In this document: one piece after another, positions 30,720-46,372 of the stretch | How positions within the stretch are numbered: position 1 is the stretch's first letter | How the letters are laid out: every line of letters starts with the position of its first letter | NCBI GenBank assembly: GCA_001897515.1 | Contig: MKTA01000018.1 | Location: 186,001-250,000 of the forward strand | Direction of reading: 5' to 3' | From: Bacteroidetes bacterium 41-46 | Lineage (GTDB): Bacteria > Bacteroidota > Bacteroidia > Bacteroidales > UBA932 | DNA length: 64,000 nucleotides | The notes under the pieces: model-generated | Seen by the model: the letters and a program-made list of their open reading frames with translations, nothing else | The model's database searches: none | What the model was told of the DNA's origin: nothing | Position numbers and translations under genes: made by a program

Positions 30720-30721
30720 TT

Positions 30722-30926: not shown

Positions 30927-31535
30927 TTATTTCGTCTTAATCGTACACCCAATAGCCACAGTACTCTTTACCTCCGGCTCCTGACCCTTCAGCAAAGCAT
31001 CAAGCGCACTCTCAACATACTTTTGGTCTGCGTCATTCGCATTTTTGTAGTTATTGTCAATAGCACCAATGTACTTAACAATATTTTTCTTGCCATCTCT
31101 CTTCAGGATATACACATGCGGAGTTCTCTGCGCACCATACTGTGGGTATATCTTCTGACCCTCGTCAATCAAGTATGGGAATGTAAAGCCCTTACTTTTA
31201 GCCCTCTCCTTCATAAGTTCAAAACTATCCTGAGGCTGAACTTCAGGATCATTCGGATTGATTGCAATCACAGGATATCCCAGAGCTTTGTATTTCTTAT
31301 CAATGGCAATGATTCTATCCTCATAGGCAATTGCATACGGACAGTGGTTGCAGGTAAAAATTACTACAAAGCCCTTTGCATCTTTGTAGTCCGACAGTGA
31401 AATCATCTTACCATCAATGTTTTTCAGCTTGAAATCAATAGCCTCATCCCCAATCTTATATCCCTGAGCAAATGCAGATGAAACTGCAAAAATCGCAATC
31501 ATTAGTGTTGCAAAATATTTAACAAACGTTTTCAT
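30927..31535 (-). CDS. Secreted thioredoxin-fold (AhpC/TSA-like) protein
   Basis: A 202-residue protein with a signal peptide (LMIAIFAVSSAFAQG). The redoxin domain begins GDEAIDFKLKNIDGK and has a C62-x-x-C65 pair in TCNHCPYA, the motif of periplasmic thioredoxin-family proteins (peroxiredoxin/RedB-like group). The cis-Pro region is RTPHVYIL. The tail has one more cysteine (AIGCTIKTK). It is probably a periplasmic thiol reductant or peroxidase; the partner is unknown. Confidence 0.85.
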   Translation of the reverse strand: MKTFVKYFATLMIAIFAVSSAFAQGYKIGDEAIDFKLKNIDGKMISLSDYKDAKGFVVIFTCNHCPYAIAYEDRIIAIDKKYKALGYPVIAINPNDPEVQPQDSFELMKERAKSKGFTFPYLIDEGQKIYPQYGAQRTPHVYILKRDGKKNIVKYIGAIDNNYKNANDADQKYVESALDALLKGQEPEVKSTVAIGCTIKTK

Positions 31536-31680
31536 ATAGTTTCAATTGATTTAATTTATTTACAAGTAATTCTATTATTTATATTTGTTCAATTATTTAT
31601 AATTGTGCTATTATTTATAATAGTTCTATTTTTTATAATTATTCTATTATTTATAGGTATTCAATTATTTACATTTATTA

Positions 31681-31730
31681 GCATATATTAGCATATATTA
31701 GCATATATTAGCATATATTAGCATATATTA
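31681..31730. repeat. 10-bp tandem repeat (5 copies)
   Basis: GCATATATTA is repeated five times exactly. The preceding ~130 bp is a looser array of TATTTATAATT-like units. The gap 31536-31807 between two thioredoxin-fold genes holds nothing else. A 10-bp AT-rich period matches the helical repeat, so intrinsic curvature is likely. Confidence 0.9.
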
Positions 31731-31807
31731 CCATTTATTTATATTATAAACAGCTAATTATATTAGTCTGTATTTAACTCATCATTAATTCTCGTCCCTT
31801 TTTCTCC

Positions 31808-32323
31808 TTATTTATTATCCTGCATTAGCTCCAGAATTATCATACGCAACTCATCTTTTTCTATTGCACTTGATACAAATTTCAGGCTTTTACCATTTCT
31901 GATAAAGAGGGTGGCGGGTATTGAGCCCGACCATGCCGAATCCACAGCCGGGATCCATTCGTTCATCCGCTTAATGTCGTCCAACAGGTACAGGTCAACA
32001 TCATTAATTTTTTTATCAACGATAAAGGGTTTGACAGCCTCCTCCAGCTTATCGGAATCGTCCAGAGAGACAAGGACCATTTTAAAATTATCGGATTTGC
32101 TGAATTCAGAATTAACCTCCATAAAATCCGGGATCTCCTTAACACACGGAGCGCACCAGGTAGCCCAGAAATTAACCACATATAGTACGTCATTCTGCTG
32201 ATGGAAAACAGGCCTGAGCTCCTCAAAATTTACAACCTTTATTTCCGGTTCTGATACGCAACCGCTTAGAGTTGATAAATATACTGCGATAGCAATAAAT
32301 AGGAATATCTTCTTATATTTCAT
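31808..32323 (-). CDS. TlpA-like thioredoxin lipoprotein
   Basis: A 171-residue lipoprotein: signal peptide with lipobox LSGC (Cys ~22), then a thioredoxin fold with the active site WATWCAPC and a downstream SGSIPATLFI cis-Pro segment. It is a probable membrane-tethered periplasmic disulfide reductase of the TlpA/ResA group. It runs in the same direction as the redoxin gene 272 bp downstream, across the AT-rich repeat. Confidence 0.88.
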   Translation of the reverse strand: MKYKKIFLFIAIAVYLSTLSGCVSEPEIKVVNFEELRPVFHQQNDVLYVVNFWATWCAPCVKEIPDFMEVNSEFSKSDNFKMVLVSLDDSDKLEEAVKPFIVDKKINDVDLYLLDDIKRMNEWIPAVDSAWSGSIPATLFIRNGKSLKFVSSAIEKDELRMIILELMQDNK

Positions 32324-32417
32324 ACTATTATTATTTCCCTGTTCAGAAAAATTTATAGCAATAACAATTTGAACAAGACAAAAGTTGAAAAATAAAAAGT
32401 CAAAACTTGGAAATCAC

Positions 32418-32855
32418 CTAACCAATACGCAAATTGATAATTTCTATAAGGTCGGGCAATTGCTTAATACTATTAATATCAATTGTCAGCGGAATCAATT
32501 TTCCCACTGGCTTAGCTGAGAGAAACTGTTGCTTGATAACATCTGAAATGGCCAAATCACAAATTCCCTGCTTATGTTTCTCAGTGAAGTAGAAGCTCAC
32601 CTTAAAGTACCCCTCCCAAACCGACAGCCAGAAGATTGTCCGTTTCTTATTAGCCACCTTGCATAGCCACGATTTACCATCATTATAGTAACGCCACTCA
32701 TAGATAAGTCCGTCCTTAAGATTTGCGTGACTACCATCCGGACTATTATTGAGACTATTCATCAATTTGATATACACATGAAAGGACTCTTCTGATAGAA
32801 TCTCTTTAAGGACCTCTTCACCTGGAAATACATCGGGATTAGATAGAACATTCAT
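32418..32855 (-). CDS. DUF3788-family protein
   Basis: A 145-residue soluble protein. The pattern LSEESFHVYIKLMNSL, then EWRYYNDGKSWLCKVANKKRTIFWLSVW and FYFTEKH, is that of DUF3788, a small family common in Firmicutes and Bacteroidota with no known activity. It faces a 26-bp palindrome just upstream of its start. Confidence 0.78.
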   Translation of the reverse strand: MNVLSNPDVFPGEEVLKEILSEESFHVYIKLMNSLNNSPDGSHANLKDGLIYEWRYYNDGKSWLCKVANKKRTIFWLSVWEGYFKVSFYFTEKHKQGICDLAISDVIKQQFLSAKPVGKLIPLTIDINSIKQLPDLIEIINLRIG

Positions 32856-32881
32856 AATAGTCAGTCATAATTATTGATTAT

Positions 32882-32907
32882 AAATGTATAAAAACATTTA
32901 TACATTT
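32882..32907. promoter_or_regulatory. Perfect palindrome in a divergent promoter region
   Basis: AAATGTATAAA-aaca-TTTATACATTT has perfect 11-bp arms. It sits 27 bp before the DUF3788 gene (minus) and 42 bp before the small Cys-rich ORF (plus). A TACATTTG -7 box for the plus strand overlaps its right arm (32901-32908), so a bound protein could control that promoter. Confidence 0.6.
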
Positions 32908-32948
32908 GCATATCCAAAGCAACTCACAACAATTTTAATATAATCATT

Positions 32949-33062
32949 ATGGAAAGCAAGTGCAAAGATTGTCCAATGAGGGCAAAATATGACAAAAATC
33001 CCAAGTCATTCAGTGACACCTTGCCACAGTTTTTGGCAAGTGTCAGATTAACAGAAAAATAA
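32949..33062 (+). pseudogene. Small CxxCP protein, 3' end replaced by a REP element
   Basis: The frame encodes 37 residues starting MESKCKDCPMRAKYDKNPKS. This opening resembles a family of ~55-65-residue Bacteroidota proteins with a CxxCPMRAKYD start and a longer Trp-rich tail (from memory). Here the tail is lost: from residue 22 on, the codons belong to the repeat at 33014-33159, giving DTLPQFLASVRLTEK. So it is either a truncated gene or a still-made short form. The start is well placed after a TACATTTG promoter box. Confidence 0.55.
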
Positions 33063-33159
33063 AACAAACACTTTTTGAAGATTCTCTTTGTCTCTCAAAA
33101 AGTGTTTGTTGTAATAAATACAAATTCAATGACTTGCCAAAAACTGTGGCAAGGTGTCA
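33014..33159. repeat. REP-pair (BIME-like) element, 146 bp, variant interior
   Basis: Left end TGACACCTTGCCACAGTTTT-TGGCAAG and right end CTTGCCAAAAACTGTGGCAAGGTGTCA are exact inverted copies, and each end is itself a CTTGCCA/TGGCAAG hairpin. The interior differs from the copies at 42567 and 43676 and holds a separate hairpin (ACAAACACTTTTTGA / TCAAAAAGTGTTTGT) that could terminate transcription from both sides. The element overlaps the small ORF on the left and ends on the TGA of the regulator gene at 33157. Confidence 0.87.
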
Positions 33160-33435
33160 AAAGTAACTCTTCAACGCCTCAACATAATCCTCAAACGCCT
33201 TCCTGCCTGTCTCGGTGATCCGGCAGGTGGTTCGGGGTCGTTTTCCGCTGTAGCCCTTCTCAACCTCAATATACCCGGCCTCGCTGAGTTTTTCTAGTTG
33301 CACACTAAGGTTCCCGGCAGTAGATGAGGTCTTCTCACGCAAATAAACAAAGTCGGCCTCCTCAAGCGAGGCGAGCAGCGATATTACTGCCAACCGCAAC
33401 TGCGAATGGAGTAGGGGGTCCAGCTCCTTAAACAT
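33157..33435 (-). CDS. Winged-helix transcriptional regulator (HTH_34 type)
   Basis: A 92-residue protein from the ATG at 33433-33435; longer starts upstream lie inside the previous gene. The HTH and wing read HSQLRLAVISLLASLEEADF, LREKTSSTAGNLSVQLEKLSEAGY, KGYSGKRPRTTCRITETGRKAF, matching the MarR/PadR-like HTH_34 group. It overlaps the membrane-protein gene by 8 bp, so the two are coupled. It probably autoregulates the twin palindromic promoters at 34092-34195. The stop codon lies on the edge of a REP element. Confidence 0.85.
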   Translation of the reverse strand: MFKELDPLLHSQLRLAVISLLASLEEADFVYLREKTSSTAGNLSVQLEKLSEAGYIEVEKGYSGKRPRTTCRITETGRKAFEDYVEALKSYF

Positions 33436-34075
33436 GGCTACCTCCTCTAGCAACATTACCTCCGTTTTTAACATTACCTCCCCTCTTAGCACTCCCTGCT
33501 CTTCTTTTAGCATCGTTTAAAATGTGGCCCGGTATTATTAGCATTATCACCGCAAAGCCCGCAGAAACAAGAATTTGCTCCATCCCCGACACCATCAGCA
33601 TAACAAAGCTTAGGGCAATTCCGAGGAATCCGGCAATGATAACCGGCTTAAACTTAATCACTAAGCCACTAATTGCCACACCTACATTCACTAACAGAGC
33701 CATCACAAACAGAATCGGGTAAGCATTGTAATCAACTAACATATATAAAGATAGCAATCCTGCTGCTACACCTACCGATATCCAGATATTTCCAATTACT
33801 CTGCCGATAAAGGTCACAATCCCCTTATCCCTCTTTTTCAGCATGTAGATCATTGTCGGATAGCCGATTATCGGCATTGCAAACCAAAGCCACTGCACAC
33901 GGTAGTCACCCGTCTCCCTAATCAGGAAATATATGGCCAACGCGACAATCAGCCATAAATATCCCCATAGCAAATAGATTCCGCCACCGTCTCTTTCTAG
34001 ATTTGTCCTGGTCTCTTTGATCATTCTGGAAATGATCTCCAGACTCTCATTCTGATTTAAGTTCTTCTCTTCCAT
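33428..34075 (-). CDS. Multi-pass membrane protein paired with the HTH_34 regulator
   Basis: A 215-residue protein with a soluble N terminus (NLNQNESLEIISRMIKETRTN) and about six hydrophobic helices from residue ~28 to 185. The C-terminal 28 residues are Gly/Arg/Asn-rich (KRRAGSAKRGGNVKNGG, then a GGNVARGGSHV repeat). This arrangement of membrane protein plus small winged-helix regulator is frequent in Bacteroidota. I know no function for it; a membrane-stress or transport role is only a guess. Confidence 0.72.
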   Translation of the reverse strand: MEEKNLNQNESLEIISRMIKETRTNLERDGGGIYLLWGYLWLIVALAIYFLIRETGDYRVQWLWFAMPIIGYPTMIYMLKKRDKGIVTFIGRVIGNIWISVGVAAGLLSLYMLVDYNAYPILFVMALLVNVGVAISGLVIKFKPVIIAGFLGIALSFVMLMVSGMEQILVSAGFAVIMLIIPGHILNDAKRRAGSAKRGGNVKNGGNVARGGSHV

Positions 34076-34091
34076 AATTAAAATGTTATTA

Positions 34092-34123
34092 CAAAAATAA
34101 ATAAGTTTAAAATATAAACCAAA
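34092..34123 (-). promoter_or_regulatory. Proximal promoter P2 with palindromic spacer
   Basis: Reading the minus strand: TTTG, 20 nt, TATTTTTG, then ~16 nt to the ATG of the membrane-protein gene. The spacer contains GTTTA-tattt-TAAAC (34105-34119). Both boxes match the Bacteroidota consensus. Confidence 0.75.
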
Positions 34124-34163
34124 CAGCTGTTAAAAAAGTGCAACTGGTTTTGATTGCACTTTG

Positions 34164-34195
34164 CAAATGTAAATAAGTTTATAATATAAACCAAA
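34164..34195 (-). promoter_or_regulatory. Distal promoter P1 with palindromic spacer
   Basis: TTTG, 20 nt, TACATTTG on the minus strand, 72 bp upstream of P2. The spacer holds the perfect palindrome GTTTATA-t-TATAAAC (34177-34191). P1 and P2 share 24 of ~27 bases, so they look like a duplicated promoter-operator. Confidence 0.72.
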
Positions 34196-34223
34196 TATTT
34201 TGTAAAAATATCTTAAAGCGATA

Positions 34224-34679
34224 TTATGTTTCACTATTCGTTAGCAGAGTTGCAGGGTTAATAACAGGAAGAATCACTCCATTTAGTGGTGTATTTACTG
34301 TTTTTTCTAATATAATTCCACGAGCTGTTGAATATACAATCCCCATTAAAGATGCTCCAAGCTCACCATTGATGAGAAGCGTATCATTTTCTCCCTGTTC
34401 AATAAACTCTTCCAAATTATCAACACGAATTACAAATTCAATGCAAAATTCTCCATTTACATCAACTAGTTGTTTCTCATCATTTTCGGCATTAAGTGCG
34501 ATATTCAATTTTATGGAGACTAATTTATTTACAAAATCAAATTTGCTACTTTGATGAATTCCAACTCTGCTATGTTTAATAATTACAGGGTTGTTACAAA
34601 AACTTTCCTCTGAACTTATTGAAGACTTGAGGATGTTAATGCAGTTTAATGCAATTTTTGAAGGATCAACTTTGCTCAT
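34224..34679 (-). CDS. SecB-like chaperone of a TAC module
   Basis: A 151-residue protein. The second half has the SecB signature: LGASLMGIVYSTARGIILEK, followed by GVILPVINPATLL, where SecB has its AYSTARG and LPPVNF-like segments. The N-terminal half (NPVIIKHSRVG, then SSKFDFVNKLVSIKLNIALNA) supplies the beta strands. Its ATG overlaps the antitoxin stop (ATGA). SecB-like proteins next to HigBA-type pairs act as dedicated chaperones that protect the antitoxin (known from Mycobacterium tuberculosis Rv1957). A general export SecB is less likely given the context. Confidence 0.72.
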   Translation of the reverse strand: MSKVDPSKIALNCINILKSSISSEESFCNNPVIIKHSRVGIHQSSKFDFVNKLVSIKLNIALNAENDEKQLVDVNGEFCIEFVIRVDNLEEFIEQGENDTLLINGELGASLMGIVYSTARGIILEKTVNTPLNGVILPVINPATLLTNSET

Positions 34680-35071
34680 GATGCAATATTAGAATTTTCT
34701 TCTTTATATTCTCCATTTGAATATTCTCCACAACCAATATTGTTACAACTGTTTATTGCTGCAACATTTAGGTAGATATACTTTGTTTTTTTATATTTTT
34801 CCTCAGCTTTAAGAGGAGTAATAATGATATCTTCGCCTAGTGCATCTTCAATATTCGCAATGCTCATAAGGGTAAGATTATGAAGTCCGGACATTAGTTT
34901 AGATATTTCACTAGGCTCTTTTTCCATTATCTCAGCCAATCTTTTTTGACTAATACCCTTTTGGTTAAGAATATGAGAAATCTGCTCAGATATCTCCAGG
35001 TTCTTTTTAATAAAGATTCTGTTTGATGGCTTAATCTTATCCTTAAGCCTTTGTGCAATAGTTTTTTTCAT
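34676..35071 (-). CDS. HTH antitoxin (HigA-like) with C-terminal extension
   Basis: A 131-residue protein. Residues ~25-88 form an XRE/Cro helix-turn-helix (ISHILNQKGISQKRLAEIMEKEP, SEISKLMSGLHNLTLMSIANIEDALG). The last ~40 residues (KYKKTKYIYLNVAAINSCNN and on) are an unstructured, aromatic and Asn-rich tail. In TAC systems such a tail is the chaperone-addiction segment that must be bound by the SecB-like partner. It overlaps both neighbours by 4 bp. It likely represses its own promoter through the TCACTTATAAGTGA palindrome upstream of the operon. Confidence 0.75.
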   Translation of the reverse strand: MKKTIAQRLKDKIKPSNRIFIKKNLEISEQISHILNQKGISQKRLAEIMEKEPSEISKLMSGLHNLTLMSIANIEDALGEDIIITPLKAEEKYKKTKYIYLNVAAINSCNNIGCGEYSNGEYKEENSNIAS

Positions 35072-35598
35072 ATTTCAAATTCAAAAGACTCATTAAAACA
35101 AATATCTGTATAATCACTATTCCAAGTAATCTCAGTTTTAAATGATTCATTAATCTTCTTGGTTATTCTGTTTGCAGTTAGAAAATGGTTTTTAACATTC
35201 GGGCAGTCATTAGCTTTAATTGTTGTTTTAATTCCACCGTTGAAAAGAATTACAACATGCTCGTTAGCCCTTAAGCAGTATAGTCGTAAATTATTAACCA
35301 GTATTTTGCACACTCTTTGCTCGCCTGCATCTGGCGGAAGGGCAGATGTGTCAGAATAAATGCCCTCTTTTCTGAAAAATTTTTCTTTTGCCCCATATTT
35401 CTCGCCAATCTCTTCAATCCAAGTAATTAAGTTGACTAAATCTGTTTCAGATTCACTCTCAAGTTCCATATTTGAGAGAAAACAATAAAATTCAGAGTTC
35501 TCCTCTTTATATTCTTTGTCATTTATTACTACGGAATAGTATTTAACCTTTTCATAGCTAAATTCTGAAAGCTTGATAAGTTTTACAAATGTATTCAT
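35068..35598 (-). CDS. Putative toxin of the TAC module
   Basis: A 176-residue protein, first in the three-gene operon. The C-terminal ~100 residues (RVCKILVNNLRLYCLRANEHVVILFNGGIKTT, then ANRITKKINESF) have the strand order and YCLR..HVVILFNGG pattern of RelE/HigB-like mRNA interferases, although it is longer than the ~100-residue HigB norm because of an acidic N-terminal domain. Catalytic residues cannot be assigned with certainty. The assignment rests mainly on position before an HTH antitoxin and a SecB-like gene. Confidence 0.6.
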   Translation of the reverse strand: MNTFVKLIKLSEFSYEKVKYYSVVINDKEYKEENSEFYCFLSNMELESESETDLVNLITWIEEIGEKYGAKEKFFRKEGIYSDTSALPPDAGEQRVCKILVNNLRLYCLRANEHVVILFNGGIKTTIKANDCPNVKNHFLTANRITKKINESFKTEITWNSDYTDICFNESFEFEI

Positions 35599-35623
35599 TT
35601 AAAAGTAAAATACAAAATAAAAA

Positions 35624-35663
35624 TCACTTATAAGTGAATTTTAACCCCGTGAATAATCACTTA
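35624..35663. promoter_or_regulatory. Operator of the TAC operon
   Basis: TCACTTATAAGTGA (35624-35637) is a perfect 14-bp palindrome 26 bp before the toxin ATG, and a half-site TCACTTA recurs at 35657-35663. A TATTTTG stretch just downstream on the minus strand is a near-consensus -7 box. The site is well placed for autorepression by the HTH antitoxin. Confidence 0.6.
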
Positions 35664-35749
35664 TTAGACAATAAAGTTTGTTGTTTGAGTTTGTATTTGC
35701 AAGGAGAATACTTTGAATGAGTAAATTATGAAGTTGAAACTGAAAAACA

Positions 35750-37042
35750 CTATCTCCCCAACTCCACAAAAACACCCGGCACTGCCATTGCCACTGATAC
35801 ATTTACCACAATTGCATCCTCTTGCGATTCTCGGAAATCGTGCTCTTTCACTTCGCTGAATTTTTGCTCTCTCTTTCCCATCGGCCCGACATTTACTTTA
35901 TAGCTCTCCTGGCGGGTGTGTCCGGCAAGTGCACCACGGATCCGGAGGGATTCCAGATATTGATTAACCCGATTATCAATTTTTTGCCAAGTTTCGGCAT
36001 TATTTGCGCAGTATTGGTATTCAGCGAGAGAGTCATTAATTGAGTGTTCAATCATATCAATAGTTCGCTTGACATTTATGAACCTATTGATTGAATTACA
36101 TTTAGTCAAAGTCCTTGCACCCCAAATCAGTGGCTCGGAATAGGGTACTTTCTTAATAACATTAACGCTAGGCACTCCATCAGGGGGATTTGTAAAAGAT
36201 GGTATCTCACTCTCAGTAAGATTAACGCTAACTTTAGTCAGCCCCTTAACTGGTAAGTTTGCAGGAGCCTTCCATATCCCGACCCTCCACTGCTGCTGAA
36301 GATATTGAGCTGCCACCCCTCCCGATGCCGGAATGACCACCTCTTTTTTAGTATCACTATTGTAAACCTTTACCCAAGGGAAGTATGCCGCCCCAAACCC
36401 CAGCCAGTCAGCTTCATTTCCAGAACTATCATTAATCCCCTCTCTAAACCTCTTCACGGGATCACCATCTGACGAGAATCCGCCAAAAATATCCAGAATT
36501 GCAAATCTCATATAGGAGGAATCTGCACAATGTCTGAGCATAGCACGCTGAACCCTAAGAGAATCATCAATATCAGGCAGGCAAACTGCCTCAGGTATAA
36601 CTAAAAGTACGTGATTAGATTCGTTTTTAAGTGCCTCTAAACCTTTAATAAGATCATACGCAAAAATCCCATCCCTGTTATTTCCTACAGATACTACAAT
36701 ACACTCACCTCCTCCATTTTCAAAGAATAGCTTTACACTTAAGTACAAATAGTAGTCCTCTCGGGTGCCATCACCACCACCAAACAGATCTATAAAATCA
36801 CCCAAATTCCTAACCCGAACCGGTCTAAAAAAGAGGTCATTATTGCCAGTCACCTTCTCAGTATATCCTACAAAAGCAACCACATCACAGGACACGTCAT
36901 TTATCGGCCTCTCCACCCACTTGCACTCCTCAACATAAACACCCGGCGGCATTTGGGTTGAATCACTCTGAGGCATTTGGGTTGAATTACCAGAGCTAGA
37001 GATGAAAGGGTTCTTAAGATTGAGAGTAAAACACTTAGCCAT
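35750..37042 (-). CDS. Phage tail sheath-like protein, isolated
   Basis: A 430-residue protein from the ATG at 37040-37042, which is placed before MAKCFTLNLKNPF. The N-terminal PPGVYVEEC segment, VAFVGYTEKVTG, and the C-terminal domain with RTLTKCNSINRFINVKRTIDMIEHSI and INQYLESLRIRGAL-like text are those of contractile tail sheath proteins. A short duplication (STQMPQSDSTQMPP) lies before the sheath start. No tube, baseplate, spike or ATPase gene is beside it, so it is either a remnant or a stand-alone sheath-like protein. Confidence 0.8.
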   Translation of the reverse strand: MAKCFTLNLKNPFISSSGNSTQMPQSDSTQMPPGVYVEECKWVERPINDVSCDVVAFVGYTEKVTGNNDLFFRPVRVRNLGDFIDLFGGGDGTREDYYLYLSVKLFFENGGGECIVVSVGNNRDGIFAYDLIKGLEALKNESNHVLLVIPEAVCLPDIDDSLRVQRAMLRHCADSSYMRFAILDIFGGFSSDGDPVKRFREGINDSSGNEADWLGFGAAYFPWVKVYNSDTKKEVVIPASGGVAAQYLQQQWRVGIWKAPANLPVKGLTKVSVNLTESEIPSFTNPPDGVPSVNVIKKVPYSEPLIWGARTLTKCNSINRFINVKRTIDMIEHSINDSLAEYQYCANNAETWQKIDNRVNQYLESLRIRGALAGHTRQESYKVNVGPMGKREQKFSEVKEHDFRESQEDAIVVNVSVAMAVPGVFVELGR

Positions 37043-37175
37043 AGTTTTTCCTGCAAGGTAATAAAAAATGTGGCAAGGTAGTATTTTGAAAAAAGATTGC
37101 AAACAGAGTGTAATTATTTAAAAATAGTTTTTAACTTTATTCAGCCCTAATCACCTAATTATTTTACTAATAACT

Positions 37176-38120
37176 ATGAAAAAAATGCGTAGAATTGCAG
37201 CTAGTGCTTGCATTGCGCTTACTGCTCTATTTATTCTTTCCTCTCTTGCTACCCTCTCATCATGTTCAGAAGGGGAAAAACCAGACCCTCCTAAACCAAA
37301 ACCACCAACTCCACCTGCTGAACAGACAAAAATACCAATTAACATTGCAACCGGTGCCTGGACAAAGGCAACAGACTCGGGATTTGAAACTGGGGATAAA
37401 GTGGGAGTCTATGTAGTGAATTTTACAGGAGCCACCTCACCCGGAACATTGGCATCAAGCGGAAACCATGCTACAAACATCGGTTTTACTTATGGTACGG
37501 CTTGGACGGCTGATACTCAAATTTACTGGAAGGACCAGACAACAAAGGCAGACTTCTATTGCTACTATCCTTATGTAGCATCTATAGCAGACGTTTCTGC
37601 CTATCAGTTCAATGTAAAGGCGAACCAGAGCGCATTGGCGGACTACAAGGCAAGCGACTTTCTCTGGGGCAAAACTGCAGGCGTTTCGCCTACATCGGAC
37701 CCTGTCCAAATTACAATTAAACACGCAATGAGCAACTTAATTGTAAGACTCACTCCGGGGAATGGCTATACGGCAGCAGATCTTGCAAATGCTGTAGTTA
37801 AAATCAAAAATCTTAAAACCAGGTCTGTAATAAACCTTACAACCGGATCTGCATCTGCCACAGGTACTGCAGAGGATATGACACCTCGTAAAGAGACTGA
37901 TTACTACAGGGCCCTGCTCGTTCCCCAAACCATTACTAATTTGGACCTAATAGTTGTTGAGTTGGGAAGTGACATCTATACTCTCAAGCAGTCAATCACT
38001 TTTGAAGCAAATAAGCAACACACTTGCACTATTGTTGTCAATAAATCCAACGGAGGAGTAACCATTACCATTGGTAACTGGGAGACTGACGGCAATGATC
38101 ACGGAGGAACAGTAGGTTAA
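37176..38120 (+). CDS. Fimbrillin-family (Mfa-like) lipoprotein
   Basis: A 314-residue outer-surface lipoprotein. Signal peptide with lipobox LSSC (Cys ~31), then a proline-rich linker (PDPPKPKPPTPPAE), then the Mfa_like_1 fold: GDKVGVYVVNF, the TQIYWKDQTTKADFYCYYPY strand, ASDFLWGKT, and IKHAMSNLIVRLTPG. This is the pattern of minor fimbrial or anchor subunits in Bacteroidales. It is first in a three-gene run and 20 bp before the next gene. Confidence 0.87.
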   Translation: MKKMRRIAASACIALTALFILSSLATLSSCSEGEKPDPPKPKPPTPPAEQTKIPINIATGAWTKATDSGFETGDKVGVYVVNFTGATSPGTLASSGNHATNIGFTYGTAWTADTQIYWKDQTTKADFYCYYPYVASIADVSAYQFNVKANQSALADYKASDFLWGKTAGVSPTSDPVQITIKHAMSNLIVRLTPGNGYTAADLANAVVKIKNLKTRSVINLTTGSASATGTAEDMTPRKETDYYRALLVPQTITNLDLIVVELGSDIYTLKQSITFEANKQHTCTIVVNKSNGGVTITIGNWETDGNDHGGTVG

Positions 38121-38140
38121 TAGAAAACCCCACAACAGTT

Positions 38141-41100
38141 ATGAAAAAAACAAAAAAAACAATATTTGCTCTTGCCTTAATTTCGGCATTGGCATTGTCA
38201 TCTTGTCTTAGAGAAGAGCCGGGAATAGACTACAATACAAATAAGCCTGGAAAAATTATGCTCTCAGGTGAAATCTCACAGATTTACCAAACACGCGTAA
38301 ACGACGAAGGATTTTGTGACGGTGATGCAATAGGTATATATATCGTTGACTATGACGGATCCACACCAGGCACTCTGAAAACTGAAGGGAACCGTGCGGA
38401 CAATATAAAACACACGTACGATGAGGAGAACTATATGTGGGTTGCAGCAAAGGATATTTACTGGAAAGACGATAAGACTCCGGTAGATGTTTTTGGATAC
38501 TACCCGTACGCCTCTCCACAAAGTATTTCGGCCTACTCTTTTGAGCTGCAAAAAGATCAAAGCACATCCGCTGCCTATGGAAAAATTGGCGGATACGAAG
38601 CCTCAGACCTCCTTTGGGGCAAGGCCGAAAAGATTGCTCCTACAGACAAGGTTATACGAATCAGCTTCAGCCACAAAATGGCCAATGTGCGAATCACCCT
38701 TGCAGAGGGAACCGGATTTACCACCGGTGAATGGAGTGCGATAGATAAGGCCGCTCTTGTTCTAAACACAAAGCGCTCCTCTACCGTTGACCTGTCAACC
38801 GGGGTGGTAACGGCAACCGGAGAAGTTCCATCCACCGGAACTATCCCGATGAAGGATAACGGAGACTTCAGGGCAATTGTAGTTCCACAAGAGGTTCCTG
38901 CCGGTCGTCCACTAATAAGCGTTACAGTAGGAGGAACCCCATATCTCCTTACCAAGGCCGAGCCATTCATTTATCATCCCTCCAAACAGCACAATTTCAC
39001 AATAACCGTAAATAAACGTGAATTAGGAGGAGTAGAATTCGTCCTCACCTCCGAGAGCATAACCGCCTGGGAGAATGACAACACTACTCACGATGCTGCT
39101 GCCAGGGAATATATTGTTATAGATGTCCCTACAGCCGGTACACTTCACGAACGCATCGCTGCTGCCGGAAAAGATTTAGCCAAGGTCAAAAATATGAAGG
39201 TAACGGGGAAGATAAATGCTACTGACTTCGCATATATGAGATTACGTATGCCAATGCTACAGTCTTTGAATCTGAAAGAGGTGACATTAGTCAAGGGTGA
39301 CGGAATTGCTATGGATGATACTTGGTATAACGGAAATGAAGACAATGAGATACCTGACTATGCTTTCTATAAAAAATCATCACTTCAAAGACTAGTTCTT
39401 CCAGATATGGTTGAAATAATTGGTGAGTGGGCATTTTATAATTGTTCCAATTTACTTGGATCAATTATACTCCCGGAGGGCTTAACTAAAATAAGCAGTT
39501 TTGCATTTGGAGAATGCAAGTCGTTAAATGGAGTCCTGTTGCTTCCATCATCATTAGAATATATTGGTGAATACGCATTTTATCAATGTGGATTCAATAC
39601 TGAATTAACTCTGCCACAAGGATTAAAATACATTGGCAATTCGGCATTCACAAGAATTGTTGGTTTGCGTGGCTCCTTAATTTTACCGGAGTCACTTGAG
39701 TATATTGGATTGACAGCATTTTGGGGAAATACTAATTTAACTGGTTCGTTGGAAATACCACCAAAAATAACTGAAATTCACGAGAGCTCATTCTCTAATT
39801 GTGGCTTTAATGGGACGCTTATATTAAACGATGATATAACTTCAATTGGTGAGTATGCGTTTTCATCTACACCATTCAGAGGCGAATTAAAACTGCCTGA
39901 AAACTTAGTTTACATTAAAAGAGGGGCGTTTAGTGATTGTGATTTTACAGGAATTCTAAAACTGCCAGAAAGTATTTCAACAATTGGAGAAGGGGCTTTC
40001 TATGGGAATTGGAGGCTAATTGGTGTAGTTGAATTTCCCAGAAACATTCAGTCAATAGGCCCATCCGCTTTTCAAAATTGCTGGGGGATAGAAGGAGTGA
40101 TTTTTAACGATGGCCTTGAAACAATTGGTCAATATGCTTTCAGTAATTGTCACGGAATAGGAAGAATTGTAAGCAAGAGTACAATACCACCTTATATTGC
40201 CGCAGGGGTTTTCCAAGGAGTTGCTAAAGACAATTTTACTGTTGAGGTACCTGAGTCTTCAGTGTCTCAATACCAGACAGCAGTTGGCTGGGCAGATTTT
40301 AAACGAATATCGGCCTACAGGGAGCTTTCAGTGAGCCCTGGCTCTGCTTCTGCAATTAACACATCTGTAACTAGGGACCTGATCTTAAGGGCAGAAGGAA
40401 ACTGGATAGTTGAGAGCAAGCCGGACTGGGTAACTCTTGATAAGATGAGTGGTAATAAAATAGCTGAAATTAAACTGACATTCCAGCAGATGTCATCTGG
40501 TTCTGCTAACAGAGAAGGTGAGGTAGTTTTTAAACTATCTGATAAAGATTACAGAACTAGATTTAAAGTGTCTCAATATAATTATGAGTATGCAGAGGAT
40601 CACTTTCTGACTCTTCATTCAGCAACAAAGGGTAATGGTGTCAATATTGTCTTTCTTGGAGACGGATATAGTGCCAAGGATATAAGCGAGGGTAAATACC
40701 TCACAACAATTAATGAGGCAGTTGGACATCTCTTTAGTGTAGAACCATACAAAACCTATAAAGAGTATTTCAATGTATATACCGGTATTGCTGTTTCACC
40801 TGAGTCAGGTATAGGCAGTGTTAATACAATAATAAACAATAGATTCAATACTTATGCACTTGGAGGAGGAGTTCTTGGTCCTAATACAACTATGTGTCCG
40901 GGATGTGATTTATCTGTTTTGGAGTACGCTGCTAAAGCCCCTACTGTTAACGAATCCAATATTGCTAAAACACTGGTAGTTATGATTGCTAATTCGTCAG
41001 AATATGGCGGTGTTACATATATGTATCCAGATGGTTCAGCAATAGCATACTCTCCGGTTAGTAATTACGGTTACCCATACGACTTCAGAGGTTTGGTACA

Positions 41101-41614
41101 ACACGAGGCCGGGGGCCACGGATTTGGGAAATTGGCAGATGAATACATTTCTCATAATGCATTCATTCATTCTTGTGGATGTGCATGTCACCCACACGTG
41201 GGAGAGATTTTAAAGGCTAAAAATCTCGGTTGGTACGAAAACATCTCCCTATCCGGCAAGCTTAATGAAGTCCCTTGGAGCCACTTTATTTTCCACGAAA
41301 AGTACAATCAGATTGTGGACGTTTTTGAGGGTGCATTTTACCACTCCCGAGGCGTTTACAGATCAGAACAGACCAGTTGTATGAACAACAACATCCCATA
41401 CTTCAATGCAATAAGCAGAGAGAGTATTGTGAAAAGGATTATGGCCTATGCTGGGGAGACATACTCACTATCAGATTTCCTAGCTAAGGATGTTCTGGAG
41501 GCTTCTGTTCCAACAAAAGGACTTGAGGCACCGGAGCTGTTAAGAAGAGCCCCGCTTCACAGCCACGCACCAATAATGATGGGCAAAAGACCAAAATTAA
41601 ATACAAGAAAGTAA
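38141..41614 (+). CDS. Fimbrillin-LRR-BACON-M64 peptidase fusion lipoprotein
   Basis: An 1157-residue surface protein. A lipobox (LALSSC, Cys ~26) is followed by a fimbrillin-like domain (~30-300; GDAIGIYIVDYDG, DIYWKDDKTPVDVFGYYPYA, SDLLWGK). About a dozen BspA-type leucine-rich repeats (LRR_5) follow at ~400-700, with recurring FxxCxxLxGxLxLPxxLxxIGxxAF units. Next come a BACON domain (~735-815; SVSPGSASA, NWIVESKPDWVTL) and an M64 IgA-peptidase-type domain (~820-1110; VFLGDGYSAKDI). The zinc site is H988-E-A-G-G-H993 followed by D1000-E-Y. All four are known Bacteroidota surface modules, but this order in one chain is unusual. No type IX secretion tail is present. Confidence 0.88.
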   Translation: MKKTKKTIFALALISALALSSCLREEPGIDYNTNKPGKIMLSGEISQIYQTRVNDEGFCDGDAIGIYIVDYDGSTPGTLKTEGNRADNIKHTYDEENYMWVAAKDIYWKDDKTPVDVFGYYPYASPQSISAYSFELQKDQSTSAAYGKIGGYEASDLLWGKAEKIAPTDKVIRISFSHKMANVRITLAEGTGFTTGEWSAIDKAALVLNTKRSSTVDLSTGVVTATGEVPSTGTIPMKDNGDFRAIVVPQEVPAGRPLISVTVGGTPYLLTKAEPFIYHPSKQHNFTITVNKRELGGVEFVLTSESITAWENDNTTHDAAAREYIVIDVPTAGTLHERIAAAGKDLAKVKNMKVTGKINATDFAYMRLRMPMLQSLNLKEVTLVKGDGIAMDDTWYNGNEDNEIPDYAFYKKSSLQRLVLPDMVEIIGEWAFYNCSNLLGSIILPEGLTKISSFAFGECKSLNGVLLLPSSLEYIGEYAFYQCGFNTELTLPQGLKYIGNSAFTRIVGLRGSLILPESLEYIGLTAFWGNTNLTGSLEIPPKITEIHESSFSNCGFNGTLILNDDITSIGEYAFSSTPFRGELKLPENLVYIKRGAFSDCDFTGILKLPESISTIGEGAFYGNWRLIGVVEFPRNIQSIGPSAFQNCWGIEGVIFNDGLETIGQYAFSNCHGIGRIVSKSTIPPYIAAGVFQGVAKDNFTVEVPESSVSQYQTAVGWADFKRISAYRELSVSPGSASAINTSVTRDLILRAEGNWIVESKPDWVTLDKMSGNKIAEIKLTFQQMSSGSANREGEVVFKLSDKDYRTRFKVSQYNYEYAEDHFLTLHSATKGNGVNIVFLGDGYSAKDISEGKYLTTINEAVGHLFSVEPYKTYKEYFNVYTGIAVSPESGIGSVNTIINNRFNTYALGGGVLGPNTTMCPGCDLSVLEYAAKAPTVNESNIAKTLVVMIANSSEYGGVTYMYPDGSAIAYSPVSNYGYPYDFRGLVQHEAGGHGFGKLADEYISHNAFIHSCGCACHPHVGEILKAKNLGWYENISLSGKLNEVPWSHFIFHEKYNQIVDVFEGAFYHSRGVYRSEQTSCMNNNIPYFNAISRESIVKRIMAYAGETYSLSDFLAKDVLEASVPTKGLEAPELLRRAPLHSHAPIMMGKRPKLNTRK

Positions 41615-41634
41615 CATATAAAAGTGATAAAGCG

Positions 41635-42546
41635 ATGAAAAGGATATTTTTATTATTATCAGCAGCAACACTTATTATAAGTTGCTCAAAGATAGATCAA
41701 GGCATACCGGATTCGGATGAGATGCGCTTTGCACCACAGCATTTTTCTAACAGCCAATCATCTGCTAATGGCCCGAGCACCAAAGCCACTGCCACCGCAT
41801 TTGAGGCAGGCGATAAAATCGGCCTCTTCGCAACAAAATATAATGGAGAGAATGCTGTTCCGCTGGAGATATCAGGAAACTATGCTAACAATTCGGCAGT
41901 CACATTCAATGGAACCAAATGGACAGCACAACCAGCTGTTTTTTGGGCCGACGGTAAATTTGATATATATGCCTACTACCCATTCATTCCATTTAGTAAA
42001 CTCCTTTCGGTTGACGAGCAGTCATTCTCCGTAGCATTAGATCAATCTACGGCAGAGACTGCTGATGCTCTCAGCGGATACGAAGCCTCTGACCTGCTGT
42101 GGGCAAAAAACACCAGTGTAACAAAGATGGATGTTGTACCACTTATTTTCAGACACACAATGAGCAGGCTGGTGGTTAATCTTGTGAAAGGGGAGGGGTA
42201 CACTGGTGACATTCCTGCCGATGCAATCGTAAGAGTTCATAATACGGTACCGCACTCTTACGTTGACCTTGCATCAGGTATTGTTACTAAAAATCCCTAT
42301 GAATCACCTAAATCAATAACAGCCAAAAAGCTCTCCACTGGAGTGTATGCCGCAATCATAGTACCGCAAAGAATCACTACCCGACTCCCATTTGTCGAGA
42401 TACTTACAAGCGGCGTCTCTTACCTTATAGAGAGCACATTTATCTTTAAACCCGCAACCCAGCACACAATCAACATCATACTCAGCAACAACCCTGAGCA
42501 GGTAAAGATAATTATTGGAGGAGAGTTAGAGGGAGGCTGGAATTAG
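41635..42546 (+). CDS. Fimbrillin-family (Mfa-like) lipoprotein
   Basis: A 303-residue lipoprotein, 20 bp after the fusion gene. Lipobox ISCS (Cys ~17) and an Mfa_like_1 fold: GDKIGLFATKYNGE, PAVFWADGKFDIYAYYPF, ASDLLWAKN, FRHTMSRLVVNLVKGEGY. It is clearly related to the two preceding proteins over the same motifs. It ends 20 bp before a 140-bp REP element. Confidence 0.87.
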   Translation: MKRIFLLLSAATLIISCSKIDQGIPDSDEMRFAPQHFSNSQSSANGPSTKATATAFEAGDKIGLFATKYNGENAVPLEISGNYANNSAVTFNGTKWTAQPAVFWADGKFDIYAYYPFIPFSKLLSVDEQSFSVALDQSTAETADALSGYEASDLLWAKNTSVTKMDVVPLIFRHTMSRLVVNLVKGEGYTGDIPADAIVRVHNTVPHSYVDLASGIVTKNPYESPKSITAKKLSTGVYAAIIVPQRITTRLPFVEILTSGVSYLIESTFIFKPATQHTINIILSNNPEQVKIIIGGELEGGWN

Positions 42547-42566
42547 GGTCGGGTCAGGACCAAAGG

Positions 42567-42706
42567 CACCTTGCCGTAGTTTATGGCAAGTTGCAATCAT
42601 AGAGGTATTTATACAAAGTATTTTCCTATAATTGAAGGATTATTCCAAAAAGTGCCTTTCTTATATCTCAGGTATACAATCACTTGCCAAAAACTGTGGC
42701 AAGGTG
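42567..42706. repeat. 140-bp REP-pair element left of the RAYT gene
   Basis: Starts CACCTTGCC-gtagttta-TGGCAAG and ends CTTGCCAaaaactgTGGCAAGGTG; each end is a hairpin and the two ends are inverted relative to each other. The interior (TTGCAATCATAGAG, then TATTTATACAAAGTATTTTC) is shared with the copy at 43676. It overlaps the last 15 codons of the RAYT gene. Confidence 0.9.
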
Positions 42707-43617
42707 CCTGCGGTTCCGTTGGCAAGGTCTTTGCGCTCCCCCCTCAATATCCTGATCACATCATAATAACTCTCATGAGTCACAGCAGAAATTTGTCGGT
42801 AAGTCGCCCCTCCTTGTTCCCGGAGAACTTGCATCGTTTTAACAAGTTCATTGCGGGTGATATCACCGAGCCTCCTCCCTTTTAAAATGAAACCCAGGTA
42901 TTTAGCAACTTCGTTGTCCGTAGGTCGAATCAACTGTCTGGAATTATTTTTAACACCACCCTCAACCTCTTCGAAAGACCAGAACTCCCTCAAATGTTTC
43001 TCAGCACCAGAATGAAGGTCATTATACGATTTAAACAGATAGTCACTTACTAAATCATTAATATCTATGAACTTGCCTAAGTAGTTATAGTAGCCCTTCT
43101 TGGTATAATGATACGAACTCCACCGATACTTCGTTATATTCTCACATATCCCGGCTCGTACAGGATTCGTAAGTATGTATAAGTAATTATATCTTAAATA
43201 CTCCTCATTGTCAATAAGTTTACTGCAAAATGGACTGTTAAACAATTGCCCGCTTAGCCCCTTACGCCTGTTGTACCATTGATTAAAACTCATCAGCAAA
43301 GACCTCATGAAAGCATTCAAACAATGCGTATAGATTTGTAAATGAACATGATTGTCCATCAGTACAAACGCCGACACAAAAGTTTTATTGTTTTTCGCCG
43401 CCCTGTCGCAACGCTCCAAAAATCCGACAAAATCAGTCGTATTATAGAATACGTTATACCGATTACTTCCCCTTATCCACACGTGAAAAAACCCGACCTG
43501 AGCACGCCTGGGTTCCTCCTTGATTTTTTGACTCTTAATTTCTGTTGCTAAACTTTCACCACCGACAGAAACGATATACTTATCTGCTGCACCAACCAAA
43601 GACGAAAAATCTCTCAT
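42661..43617 (-). CDS. REP-associated tyrosine transposase (RAYT)
   Basis: A 318-residue Y1 single-strand transposase. The start is at MRDFSSLVGA, preceded by GGGAGAGATTG; the 36 residues upstream in frame are REP sequence. The HUH motif is H90-V-H92 in VLMDNHVHLQIY; the nucleophile is probably Y147 in YNYLYILTNPVRAG. Unlike short IS200 TnpA it has a C-terminal HTH (REQGGATYRQISAVTHESYYDV), as in DnaA-like RAYT tails. RAYTs are single-copy domesticated enzymes that move or process REP sequences. The gene ends inside a REP element, so its tail GTLPQFLASDCIPEI is repeat-encoded. Confidence 0.9.
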   Translation of the reverse strand: MRDFSSLVGAADKYIVSVGGESLATEIKSQKIKEEPRRAQVGFFHVWIRGSNRYNVFYNTTDFVGFLERCDRAAKNNKTFVSAFVLMDNHVHLQIYTHCLNAFMRSLLMSFNQWYNRRKGLSGQLFNSPFCSKLIDNEEYLRYNYLYILTNPVRAGICENITKYRWSSYHYTKKGYYNYLGKFIDINDLVSDYLFKSYNDLHSGAEKHLREFWSFEEVEGGVKNNSRQLIRPTDNEVAKYLGFILKGRRLGDITRNELVKTMQVLREQGGATYRQISAVTHESYYDVIRILRGERKDLANGTAGTLPQFLASDCIPEI

Positions 43618-43675
43618 CACAATCTCTCCCACATATTTCAAACGCAATATACAAAAAATCCGGTTGCAGGAGAGG

Positions 43676-43815
43676 CACCTTGCCACAGTTTTTGGCAAGT
43701 TGCAATCATAGAGATATTTACACAAAGTATTTTTCTATAATTGAAGGAGTATTCAAAAAAGTTCCTTTCGTATGTCTTAGGTATACAATCACTTGCCAAA
43801 AACTGTGGCAAGGTG
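43676..43815. repeat. 140-bp REP-pair element right of the RAYT gene
   Basis: Same length, orientation and most of the interior as 42567-42706 (TTGCAATCATAGAG, ATTTACACAAAGTATTTTTC, GGTATACAATCACTTGCC). The two copies bracket the RAYT gene as direct repeats 1109 bp apart. This copy has the consensus hairpin CTTGCCACAGTTTTTGGCAAG at the left. Confidence 0.9.
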
Positions 43816-43920
43816 AACGGTGCCTCCTGGCAAGGTTTCCGCTCCGCCCATTCCTCCCAACAATAATAATTATGTTAAATAGCCAAATTCTTAAAAACGC
43901 AACCCTCTCAGATTGCGTTA

Positions 43921-43944
43921 CTTGCCAAAAACTATGGCAAGGTG
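43921..43944. repeat. Solo REP hairpin on the 3' end of the aminotransferase gene
   Basis: CTTGCCAAAAACTATGGCAAGGTG is a single REP half. On the minus strand it supplies the last residues NTLP and the TAG stop of the downstream aminotransferase gene. Confidence 0.85.
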
Positions 43945-45134
43945 TTCACCACCCCCACAACTCTCTCCAAATCCTCATCACTCAAACCAGGGTGGGAGGG
44001 AAGGCATAATCCCTTCTCAAATAACTGTCCGCAAATGCTATTCTCTCTATCCGGCTCTGTGTCTGAGTCTTTGTTAAAGCTGGTATAGCAGCTGCTATCA
44101 TTGTGTCCATAAAAAGGAGCCTCTTCAAACACAGGTTGCATATGCATCGGTTTCCAAAGAGGCCGGGTTTCAATGTTTGCAGCCTCCATTGCTAATCTTA
44201 AATCTTCACGAGTGAAGCCGGCAACTTTAGGGTCAACCAATATACAGGTTAGCCACATATTTGATTCAAATTCATCTGAAGGGTTTGTAAGGAATGATAT
44301 CCCTGGTAAGCCCTGCAGCAACTTCTTATATTTATTATTTATCTCCCTTCTTGCAGAGATATGCTCATCCAGCACCAACATCTGCCCCCTTCCAATTCCG
44401 GCGCAGATATTGCTAAGCCGATAGTTGTATCCAATATGTGAGTGCTGGTAGTGCGGTGCATTATCACGTGCCTGAGTTGCCAAAAATTTGGTCACACCGG
44501 CGGCCTCGGCAGAGGAGCAAACCAGAGCCCCACCACCCGAAGTAGTTATTATCTTATTTCCATTAAAAGAGAGACAAGCAAACTCCCCAAAAGTACCACA
44601 GCACCTTCCCCTATATTTTGAACCCATAGCCTCGGCCGCATCCTCAAGTACCGGAATCCCATAACTGTCGGCAATTTCCATTATTTCATCCATCTTTGCC
44701 GGCATTCCATAAAGATGCACCGGAATAATCGCCTTAGGTTTCTTACCTGTTATCTTAATCCTATCCTCAATTGCAATCTCAAGCAGCTTTGGATCCATAT
44801 TCCATGTCTCCTCCTCACTATCCACAAATACAGGCGATGCCCCAACATATTTAATCGGATTAGCACTTGCGCTAAAAGTAAAGGATTGGCAAATCACCTC
44901 GTCTCCAGGTTGCACCCCAAGCTGAATAAGCGCCAGATGTATAGCCGCCGTTCCCGAGCTCAGAGCCACTATATGTTTATCACCGCCGATAAACTCCTCC
45001 AGATCCTTTTCGAATCCATCCACATTTGGGCCGAGCGGAACCACCCAGTTTGTGTCAAAAGCCGATTGAATAAATTTTTGCTCCATACCGCCCATATGGG
45101 CCAGTGAGAGCCAGATTTTATTAAAAGTTGACAT
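43932..45134 (-). CDS. pglE: DegT/DnrJ/EryC1-family sugar aminotransferase (PglE-like)
   Basis: A 400-residue PLP enzyme. The PLP lysine lies in SFNGNKIITTSGGGAL; other family marks are LSSGTAAIHLAL, VEDAAEAMGS and HYQHSHIGYNYRLSNICAGIGRGQ. With the acetyltransferase and phosphosugar transferase that precede it in transcription order, it forms the PglE/D/C set that makes and loads UDP-N,N'-diacetylbacillosamine-like sugars. It transaminates the 4-keto sugar. The last codons and stop are inside a REP hairpin. It is the distal end of the polysaccharide operon. Confidence 0.88.
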   Translation of the reverse strand: MSTFNKIWLSLAHMGGMEQKFIQSAFDTNWVVPLGPNVDGFEKDLEEFIGGDKHIVALSSGTAAIHLALIQLGVQPGDEVICQSFTFSASANPIKYVGASPVFVDSEEETWNMDPKLLEIAIEDRIKITGKKPKAIIPVHLYGMPAKMDEIMEIADSYGIPVLEDAAEAMGSKYRGRCCGTFGEFACLSFNGNKIITTSGGGALVCSSAEAAGVTKFLATQARDNAPHYQHSHIGYNYRLSNICAGIGRGQMLVLDEHISARREINNKYKKLLQGLPGISFLTNPSDEFESNMWLTCILVDPKVAGFTREDLRLAMEAANIETRPLWKPMHMQPVFEEAPFYGHNDSSCYTSFNKDSDTEPDRENSICGQLFEKGLCLPSHPGLSDEDLERVVGVVNTLP

Positions 45135-45147
45135 ATATAAATTTTAG

Positions 45148-45762
45148 TTAAATCAATTTTTTTACCACCCTAGCCGGATTACCCATCACCAACACATTAT
45201 CAGGGACATCTCTCATCACTACAGAACCAGCTGCCACTAGGCTCCATTTGCCAACTCTGATTCCTGGGATTACAACAGCTCCTGCACCCACCTGACTTCC
45301 CTCTCCAATAAAAACATTTCCGCAAAGAGTTGCATTTGGAGAGATATGTACAAAGTCCTCAAGCAAACAATCATGATCTACAGATGCAGCCGTATTAATA
45401 ATGCAATGCCTGCCAACAGAAGCAGCCGATTGAATTATTGCTCCTTGCATTACCACTGACCCATCACAAACAGTAGCGTGCTCTGAAATAATTGCTGTAG
45501 GGTGGATTGCCTTACCATATTTAATATTTAGTGGAAGCTTGTCCTCTACCTTTTTTCTGATATTATTCAGCCCAATCGAAATAATTAATTTGCTTTCTTT
45601 CAGAATTTCAGAATTATAAGAGCCAAAAACTTTATATCCAAGAAGCTCTTTAACATTAGGATTATCGTCAAATAGTCCTTTAACTTCAAATCCTGAGGCA
45701 GTTAATGAATCAATAATCACTTTCGCATGCCCACTTGCCCCATATAAAAAAACAGATTTCAT
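45148..45762 (-). CDS. pglD: Sugar O/N-acetyltransferase, left-handed beta-helix (PglD/NeuD family)
   Basis: A 204-residue enzyme. The N-terminal Rossmann-like subdomain starts FLYGASGHAKVIIDSL, and hexapeptide repeats from residue ~85 build the beta-helix (HATVCDGSVVMQGAIIQSAA, then GAGAVVIPGIRVGKWSLVAAG). The acid/base histidine is in ASVDHDC. It most likely N-acetylates the 4-amino group put on by the neighbouring aminotransferase. It sits 13 bp before pglE. Confidence 0.87.
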   Translation of the reverse strand: MKSVFLYGASGHAKVIIDSLTASGFEVKGLFDDNPNVKELLGYKVFGSYNSEILKESKLIISIGLNNIRKKVEDKLPLNIKYGKAIHPTAIISEHATVCDGSVVMQGAIIQSAASVGRHCIINTAASVDHDCLLEDFVHISPNATLCGNVFIGEGSQVGAGAVVIPGIRVGKWSLVAAGSVVMRDVPDNVLVMGNPARVVKKLI

Positions 45763-45763
45763 A

Positions 45764-46372
45764 TCATTTATTCCCTTTAAACGGCTCCATTGTTACATCA
45801 CTCCCCGCATTAATCCCATCCCTGAAAAAGACCCTTTTAACAGTTAAAAATAGTATTTTTATATCCAGCCACAAACTCAAATTATCCACATACCACACAT
45901 CATACTCAAACTTCTGCTCCCACGAGATCGCATTCCTCCCATTCACCTGCGCCCACCCGGTCATCCCCGGCTTCACCTCATGCCGCCTCGCCTGCCTATC
46001 GGAATAGAGCGGAAGGTATTGCACCAGCAAAGGCCGAGGTCCCACCAGGCTCATATCCCCCTTCAGGACATTTATCAGCTGAGGAAGCTCATCAATGGAC
46101 AAAGAGCGCACCACCCTCCCCACCGATGTAATCCTCTCCCCATCCGGCAACAGATTCCCCGCACCATCCCTCTTGTCACTCATCGTCTTAAACTTAATCA
46201 CCCTGAACAACTTCCCCCCCTTCCCGGGCCGACACTGAACAAAAACCGCCCCGGCCCCTCCATTCGCCACCATCAGCAGCACCCATACAAGTAGAAGGAT
46301 GGGGCTAATAACCACCAGCCCAATTAAAGACAAAGTAAAATCCAGGAAGCGTTTGAAGAAGAATTTGTACAT
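45764..46372 (-). CDS. pglC: Initiating phosphosugar transferase (PglC/WcaJ type)
   Basis: A 202-residue monotopic membrane enzyme that moves a phosphosugar from UDP-sugar to undecaprenyl phosphate. An N-terminal re-entrant hydrophobic helix (FTLSLIGLVVISPILLLVWVLL) is followed by the core LFRVIKFKTM, SIDELPQLINVLKGDMSLVGPRP, and RHEVKPGMTGWAQVNGRN. It is of the short PglC class. It starts repeat-unit assembly for this locus and overlaps nothing, lying 1 bp from pglD. Confidence 0.93.
   Translation of the reverse strand: MYKFFFKRFLDFTLSLIGLVVISPILLLVWVLLMVANGGAGAVFVQCRPGKGGKLFRVIKFKTMSDKRDGAGNLLPDGERITSVGRVVRSLSIDELPQLINVLKGDMSLVGPRPLLVQYLPLYSDRQARRHEVKPGMTGWAQVNGRNAISWEQKFEYDVWYVDNLSLWLDIKILFLTVKRVFFRDGINAGSDVTMEPFKGNK

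Follow-up and report, generated by a model that had tools for sequence, protein, structure and literature searches.

RAYT gene and paired hairpins in the window

The sequence analysed here (the window) is a 64,000-nucleotide stretch of the genome of Bacteroidetes bacterium 41-46 (genome G000; assembly of 2.47 Mb in 34 contigs). A RAYT-REPIN system exists at this locus, with the following features:

42661-43617, minus strand: gene for a RAYT-like HUH/Y1 protein of 318 aa, read from the ATG at 43617
42564-42706, plus strand: downstream paired-hairpin element (REPIN), detected as a direct and inverted repeat, with hairpins at 42568-42590 and 42683-42705
43673-43815, plus strand: upstream paired-hairpin element (REPIN), detected as a direct and inverted repeat, with hairpins at 43677-43699 and 43792-43814
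about 33015-33158, plus strand: third paired-hairpin element with a diverged interior, detected by repeat search and hairpin pattern
43920-43944, minus strand: solo hairpin overlapping the stop codon of an aminotransferase-like gene (43932-45134)
8414-8436, minus strand: degenerate solo hairpin with 3 mismatches, detected by hairpin pattern search

The two elements flanking the RAYT are in direct orientation, 143 nt each, 92% identical and spaced by 1109 nt. Both have inverted 25-nt ends, each of which is a 7-bp stem with a 7-nt loop (CTTGCCA-N7-TGGCAAG), and one such inverted hairpin pair per element is the layout of a REPIN. The arms of the inverted repeat in the upstream element are 100% complementary. 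The 3' end of the RAYT gene (42661) falls within the downstream element, and a longer ORF with a TTG start (42661-43725) extends into the upstream one. The third element is 71% identical, over 33017-33156, to the element at 43673. Thus the gene, the direct elements on its two sides, the solo hairpin placed near 43921 and the variant pair placed near 33014 in the initial annotation were all recovered.

When a 23-nt hairpin pattern was searched with up to 3 mismatches, 8 sites were found in the window, compared with a mean of 0.00 in 100 shuffles. One of the 8, the degenerate solo at 8414-8436, is additional to those of the initial annotation. The whole genome has 11 such sites. The initial annotation described the repeats as dispersed elsewhere, which calls for correction: six sites form three full pairs, all on a single contig and inside 11 kb, and the other five are solo or degenerate. 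The element is present elsewhere in the genome, though rare. An Rfam scan of window positions 30000-46000 returned no family except one tRNA (gene at 30093-30180).

The RAYT protein

The protein has the motifs H90-x-H92, Y147 and W166-S167-S168. H90, H92 and Y147, which had been proposed as the catalytic residues from the sequence, are invariant across 18 aligned homologues. The NCBIfam model REP_Tyr_transpos matches all 18 aligned members, and the window protein with E 3.9e-13 (49.5 bits, under the cut-off of 80); the Pfam model Y1_Tnp matches it with E 0.002 (18.6 bits, under the cut-off of 23). These profile matches make it a weak but clear member of the RAYT family.

A C-terminal helix-turn-helix (HTH) had also been proposed. 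With three HTH-type Pfam models, hits were limited to 2, 2 and 1 of the 18 members (best E 0.02) and the window protein had no hit at E 0.5, so that the HTH is a weakly supported, putative feature of this protein. A profile built from the C-terminus of the genus proteins matched 1 of 82 proteins from outside the genus; sharing of this domain with them is therefore unsupported. A sequence search for relatives of solved structure gave one irrelevant match (E 0.69).

Homologues are found at E 1e-5 in 22 of 25 genomes of the genus, and the distance from the HUH motif to the tyrosine is 55 in all 48 genus homologues surveyed. The closest are in G016 (84% identical), G003 (71%), G005 (69%) and G001 (68%). 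Each of the five genomes in this clade (clade A) has one homologue of more than 50% identity, that is, a single copy for the clade. The gene does not behave as an IS200/IS605 insertion sequence, which is self-mobile and multicopy: there is one clade copy per genome in 5/5, and its neighbours are conserved. In an order-level sample of 148 genomes, 27 of the 147 others have a match, and the matches listed cover the core region only. The two other genera of the family in this sample gave no match.

The genome that contains the window encodes two more distant RAYTs, at C15:37323-38132 (38% identical) and C22:47126-47884 (27%). An element pair exists upstream of the former, and none was found at the latter.

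Structure and placement of the elements

The fetched stretches contain 28 full hairpin pairs, of which 19 are 137-138 nt in length. Their ends are nearly invariant and their interiors diverged. Folded as single-stranded DNA, five elements gave z-scores of -5.4 to -12.8, including the downstream (-5.4), upstream (-8.3) and third (-12.8) elements of the window. In an alignment of 19 of the 28 elements, 97.9% of the cells of the outer 25-bp helix are paired. The inner stem is less well kept (71 and 83% of cells paired in its two parts), and RNAalifold predicts the outer helix as the sole helix for the 19 elements. The number of pairs changed on both sides in the aligned elements does not exceed that in shuffles (266 of 500). 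At the feet of the hairpins the bases are CACC/GACC on the outer side and A-C or G-T on the inner side; the GT[AG]G guide at the foot, which is the canonical mark of REPs, is absent from the aligned elements.

None of the 28 elements lies within an ORF of at least 150 aa, though 78% of the DNA surveyed belongs to ORFs of this size. Several of them terminate within 35 nt of the 3' end of an ORF.

Hairpins and RAYTs across the genus

Four hairpin motifs (A-D), taken from the flanks of four RAYT clades, were counted in the 25 genomes. In the five genomes that encode a clade-A RAYT, motif A (the motif of the window) has 11, 11, 17, 30 and 29 sites. Without this RAYT it has 6 and 4 sites in two incomplete genomes (G015 and G019) and none in the other 18, and a reversed motif A used as control has 0 or 1 sites. 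The same pattern is repeated by the three further motifs: motif B has 28-40 copies, motif C 8-35 and motif D 26 in their own genomes, with few or none elsewhere. Counting by hand as present those motifs with 4 or more copies farther than 1.5 kb from the RAYT, dispersed copies are found in 11/11 genome-motif pairs with the cognate RAYT and in 5/89 without it. Note that the motifs were picked from RAYT flanks and that the genomes are related, so the P values attached to these figures mark an upper bound of strength rather than strict tests; shared descent alone suffices to raise co-occurrence.

The five exceptions, in which a motif is present and no cognate RAYT was detected, are G015, G019, G011, G013 and G009, whose assemblies are 82-89% complete. 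The worst is G011 with 30 copies of motif B. In four of them a profile search returned different RAYTs or fragments at contig edges; the fragments in G013 are not nearer to the motif-C clade, and G009 has no RAYT at E 0.1. As to whether the hairpin is equally abundant in relatives lacking the enzyme, which the initial annotation had raised, the answer is no for motif A and likewise for the three further motifs, with these five exceptions standing against it.

The end motifs grade with the RAYT tree. Clade A has ACCTTGCCACAG, its sister clade ACCTTGCCTTAC and another clade CTCCGCGCC, and the fourth clade has CCCCAGGGG or CCTCAGAGG. Together with the anatomy of the locus, this genus-wide pairing of hairpin and enzyme supports the initial interpretation as a RAYT-REP system, which was right in kind.

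Flanks of related RAYTs and place in the RAYT tree

Among the 48 genus RAYTs, 46 have enough flanking sequence to be surveyed. A paired element is found on both sides in 20/46 and on at least one side in 28/46, and a direct repeat of at least 50 nt spans the gene in 15/46; the flank test gave no paired element for the remaining 18/46. At 300 control sites, which were drawn from three genomes and may hold other elements of the same families, there were 2 direct repeats, 16 paired elements on at least one side and none on both sides.

Homologues outside the genus (54, mostly proteobacterial by title, 49 assessable) have different flanks. A terminal inverted repeat (TIR) spans the gene in 33/49, and paired elements occur on a side in three and on both sides in one. 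GGGGWSAS, which Di Nocera et al. (2013) give as the TIRYT motif (PMC3733652), is present by eye in 17 of the 33 printed TIRs. For other Bacteroidales RAYTs, 25 of 28 loci were assessable; 9 have a direct repeat, 4 a paired element on a side and 1 on both. These proteins are 166-236 aa long, and those in which both motifs could be located have an HUH-Y distance of 58-99. In a quick unrooted tree of 40 chosen rows, the genus RAYTs group with the TIR-flanked ones (split support 98) and the other Bacteroidales RAYTs are on a separate side; the class placement is made through the TIR-flanked relatives rather than from subclass reference sequences.

Locus stability and turnover of elements

The order of the aminotransferase-like gene, the RAYT and the gene at 33428-34075 is identical in G000, G016 and G005; G001 likewise has the aminotransferase-like gene close to the RAYT. 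Some hairpins are in old positions. G000 and G016 both have a hairpin where the aminotransferase-like gene ends (840220-840242 in G016, overlapping the 3' end of the homologue), and an element starts nearby in G005. The G016 solo hairpin at 890043-890065 is in a region syntenic with the window hairpin at 8414-8436. The third element has a counterpart in G005 (7784-7920) beside the same gene, and the alignment to contig C31 of G005 (33018-34210 to 7920-6736) runs from the element through the neighbouring gene.

One base change is found in 23/30 G005 hairpins and in 0/78 hairpins of the other six genomes, and the counterpart of the third element also has it. The change sits on both arms of the stem (pair UA in 13, CG in 6). 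That old positions carry a new, species-wide hairpin sequence points to homogenisation, with the G005 hairpins changing in concert.

In G016, which is a single contig, 10 of the 13 elements more than 1.5 kb away from the RAYT are within 60 kb of it (0.66 expected), and in G001 4/6 are within 20 kb (0.09 expected); the expectation assumes uniform placing and ignores gene density. In G010, the initial 7 kb of the contig with the RAYT hold 13/26 motif-D copies. Crowding near the RAYT is not general, as copies of motifs B and C are scattered more broadly: 7/40 motif-B copies in G007 and 4/35 motif-C copies in G017 are within 1.5 kb of a RAYT and the rest are over many contigs.

Some ends of homology also fall at elements. 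When the window is compared with G016, 4/34 homology ends have a hairpin or element no more than 10 bp away (null mean 0.82, P 0.016). In the close pair G015 and G016, three breaks are not N runs, and two of these are at element edges. Neither comparison gave a clean empty site, only breaks at element edges. The crowding and break-point patterns are leads rather than proof.

Several other features were seen in these regions. A small ORF with the motif CxxCPMRAKYD is cut at an element edge both in the window (32946-33014) and in G016 (867164-867343), at opposite ends. A 321-bp piece of a glycosyltransferase-like gene (window 45793-46113, G016 841739-842059) is 96% identical and differs in position, with 7 bp between its end and an element. 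Another palindromic repeat, roughly 105 bp long and with AAGTTATTTCCCGC at its tips, is found in the window at 30620-30722 and in G016 at 798489-798593, 842438-842540, 858328-858431, 864164-864267 and 867503-867578, where it is often near hairpin elements. G016 has a repeat island at 864072-864640, beside an element, which contains several different palindromic repeats and is missing from G015.

Possible origins of the arrangement

We consider it likely that the RAYT is a domesticated, vertically inherited TIRYT (subclass-2.1-like) enzyme with its own small REPIN population, which it would mobilise in trans. This reading brings together how the locus is built, the match of each RAYT clade to its own hairpin, the location of the elements outside genes, the kept gene order, hairpins that changed in concert in one species, and the crowding in two genomes. 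TnpAREP is reported to cleave single strands, and in other groups the enzyme and the REP change together (PMC8266576). By analogy, the enzyme would recognise the hairpins of 7-bp stem and 7-nt loop at the ends of a single-stranded element of roughly 138 nt. Y147 would cut the element ends, with H90 and H92 presumably holding the metal, and the element would be excised and copied or moved in trans into extragenic DNA, while the RAYT gene itself would stay put between two element copies. The window RAYT probably copies the paired-hairpin elements that flank it, acting on its own hairpins.

Alternatively, the element-RAYT-element unit could be a compound mobile element that moves whole, with the outer hairpins as its ends. 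The flanking copies are direct and near-identical within G000 (92%) and G016 (89%), yet differ between species, and the G000-G016 alignment of the RAYT region stops where the downstream element has its outer edge (42564/844083), which favours this view. However, the clade has a single copy per genome in 5/5, and the RAYT keeps its neighbours in three genomes (G000, G016 and G005) and lies close to the aminotransferase-like gene in a fourth (G001), which makes this quite unlikely. An equally improbable view gives the hairpins a host role, for which they would be retained, in terminating transcription or stabilising mRNA 3' ends; the proximity of the RAYT would then be incidental. Extragenic elements, several of them at most 35 nt away from where an ORF ends, and a solo hairpin (43920-43944) over a stop codon suit this role, but inverted pairs of near-constant length (137-138 nt in 19/28), hairpins matching the RAYT clade by clade, and an Rfam scan giving nothing but a tRNA in 30000-46000 do not.

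The elements might instead be MITE-like relics of another transposon that serve mainly as end points of recombination or deletion, with the RAYT captured between copies. The homology ends near elements (4/34, P 0.016), the two of three G015-G016 breaks at element edges and the small ORF cut at an element edge in G000 and G016 all fit, but the same layout recurs with unrelated hairpins at RAYTs of other clades. Because of this recurrence a chance capture is disfavoured, and we regard this origin as very unlikely. A speculative extension of the TIRYT-REPIN reading, itself unlikely, is that TIRYT-type enzymes of this genus run local REPIN populations, in which new copies mostly arrive within tens of kb of the RAYT and element edges, as break points, rearrange the surface-glycan locus around it. 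The RAYT might then be a region-specific generator of cell-surface variation.

Comparison with known systems

The initial annotation held that RAYT-REP systems are much less described in Bacteroidota, which needs qualifying. Quentin et al. (2018), in their account of subclass 2.6, already report Bacteroidetes RAYTs with atypical flanking structures (PMC6006769). The genus RAYTs share with subclass 2.6 the phylum and the presence of atypical flanking secondary structures that are copied elsewhere. They differ in that subclass 2.6 has an insertion between helix C and strand 4 and an HUH-Y distance of about 82. With a distance of 55 in 48/48 genus RAYTs, the window RAYT is not of this subclass. 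Among the papers listed by literature searches, none concerned REPINs belonging to HTH-type RAYTs of Bacteroidales. The novelty lies in the class of enzyme and in the matched enzyme-hairpin pairs across the genus.

As for TIRYTs (TIRtrons) and subclass 2.1, the closest relatives outside the genus have a TIR across the gene in 33/49 assessable cases, and the short HUH-Y distance, the WSS motif and the C-terminal extension are shared. Unlike them, the genus RAYTs are flanked on both sides by paired elements of 100-150 nt in 20/46, compared with 1/49. The subclass 2.1 section of Quentin et al. (2018) describes a C-terminal HTH and no REP-like neighbours (PMC6006769); the paired elements thus extend the known RAYT-REPIN kind to an enzyme class reported without REPs. 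The step to paired elements has some precedent, since Di Nocera et al. (2013) note TIR families of which some are self-complementary and some dimeric (PMC3733652). If our reading is true, the genus links the TIRYT and REPtron layouts.

REPtrons (RAYT-REPIN systems) of Pseudomonas fluorescens SBW25 and the E. coli TnpAREP, as reported, likewise have an HUH/Y1 protein beside inverted hairpin pairs, extragenic copies, a single-copy, vertically kept gene and hairpin families specific to each RAYT (PMC3116915, PMC6006769, PMC8266576). Unlike theirs, the hairpins of this genus are without the GT[AG]G guide at the foot; if the reading holds, REPIN formation is not bound to GTAG-guided RAYT groups. 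The genus also has only about 10 to 40 hairpins per genome. While the spacing analysis reported for SBW25 REPs gives no departure from random above 200 bp (PMC3116915), copies crowd near the RAYT in two complete genomes of this genus, which lets one ask about spread via short-range single-strand transfer. The four or more enzyme clades with matching hairpins would form a natural series for the co-change of HUH enzymes and their hairpins.
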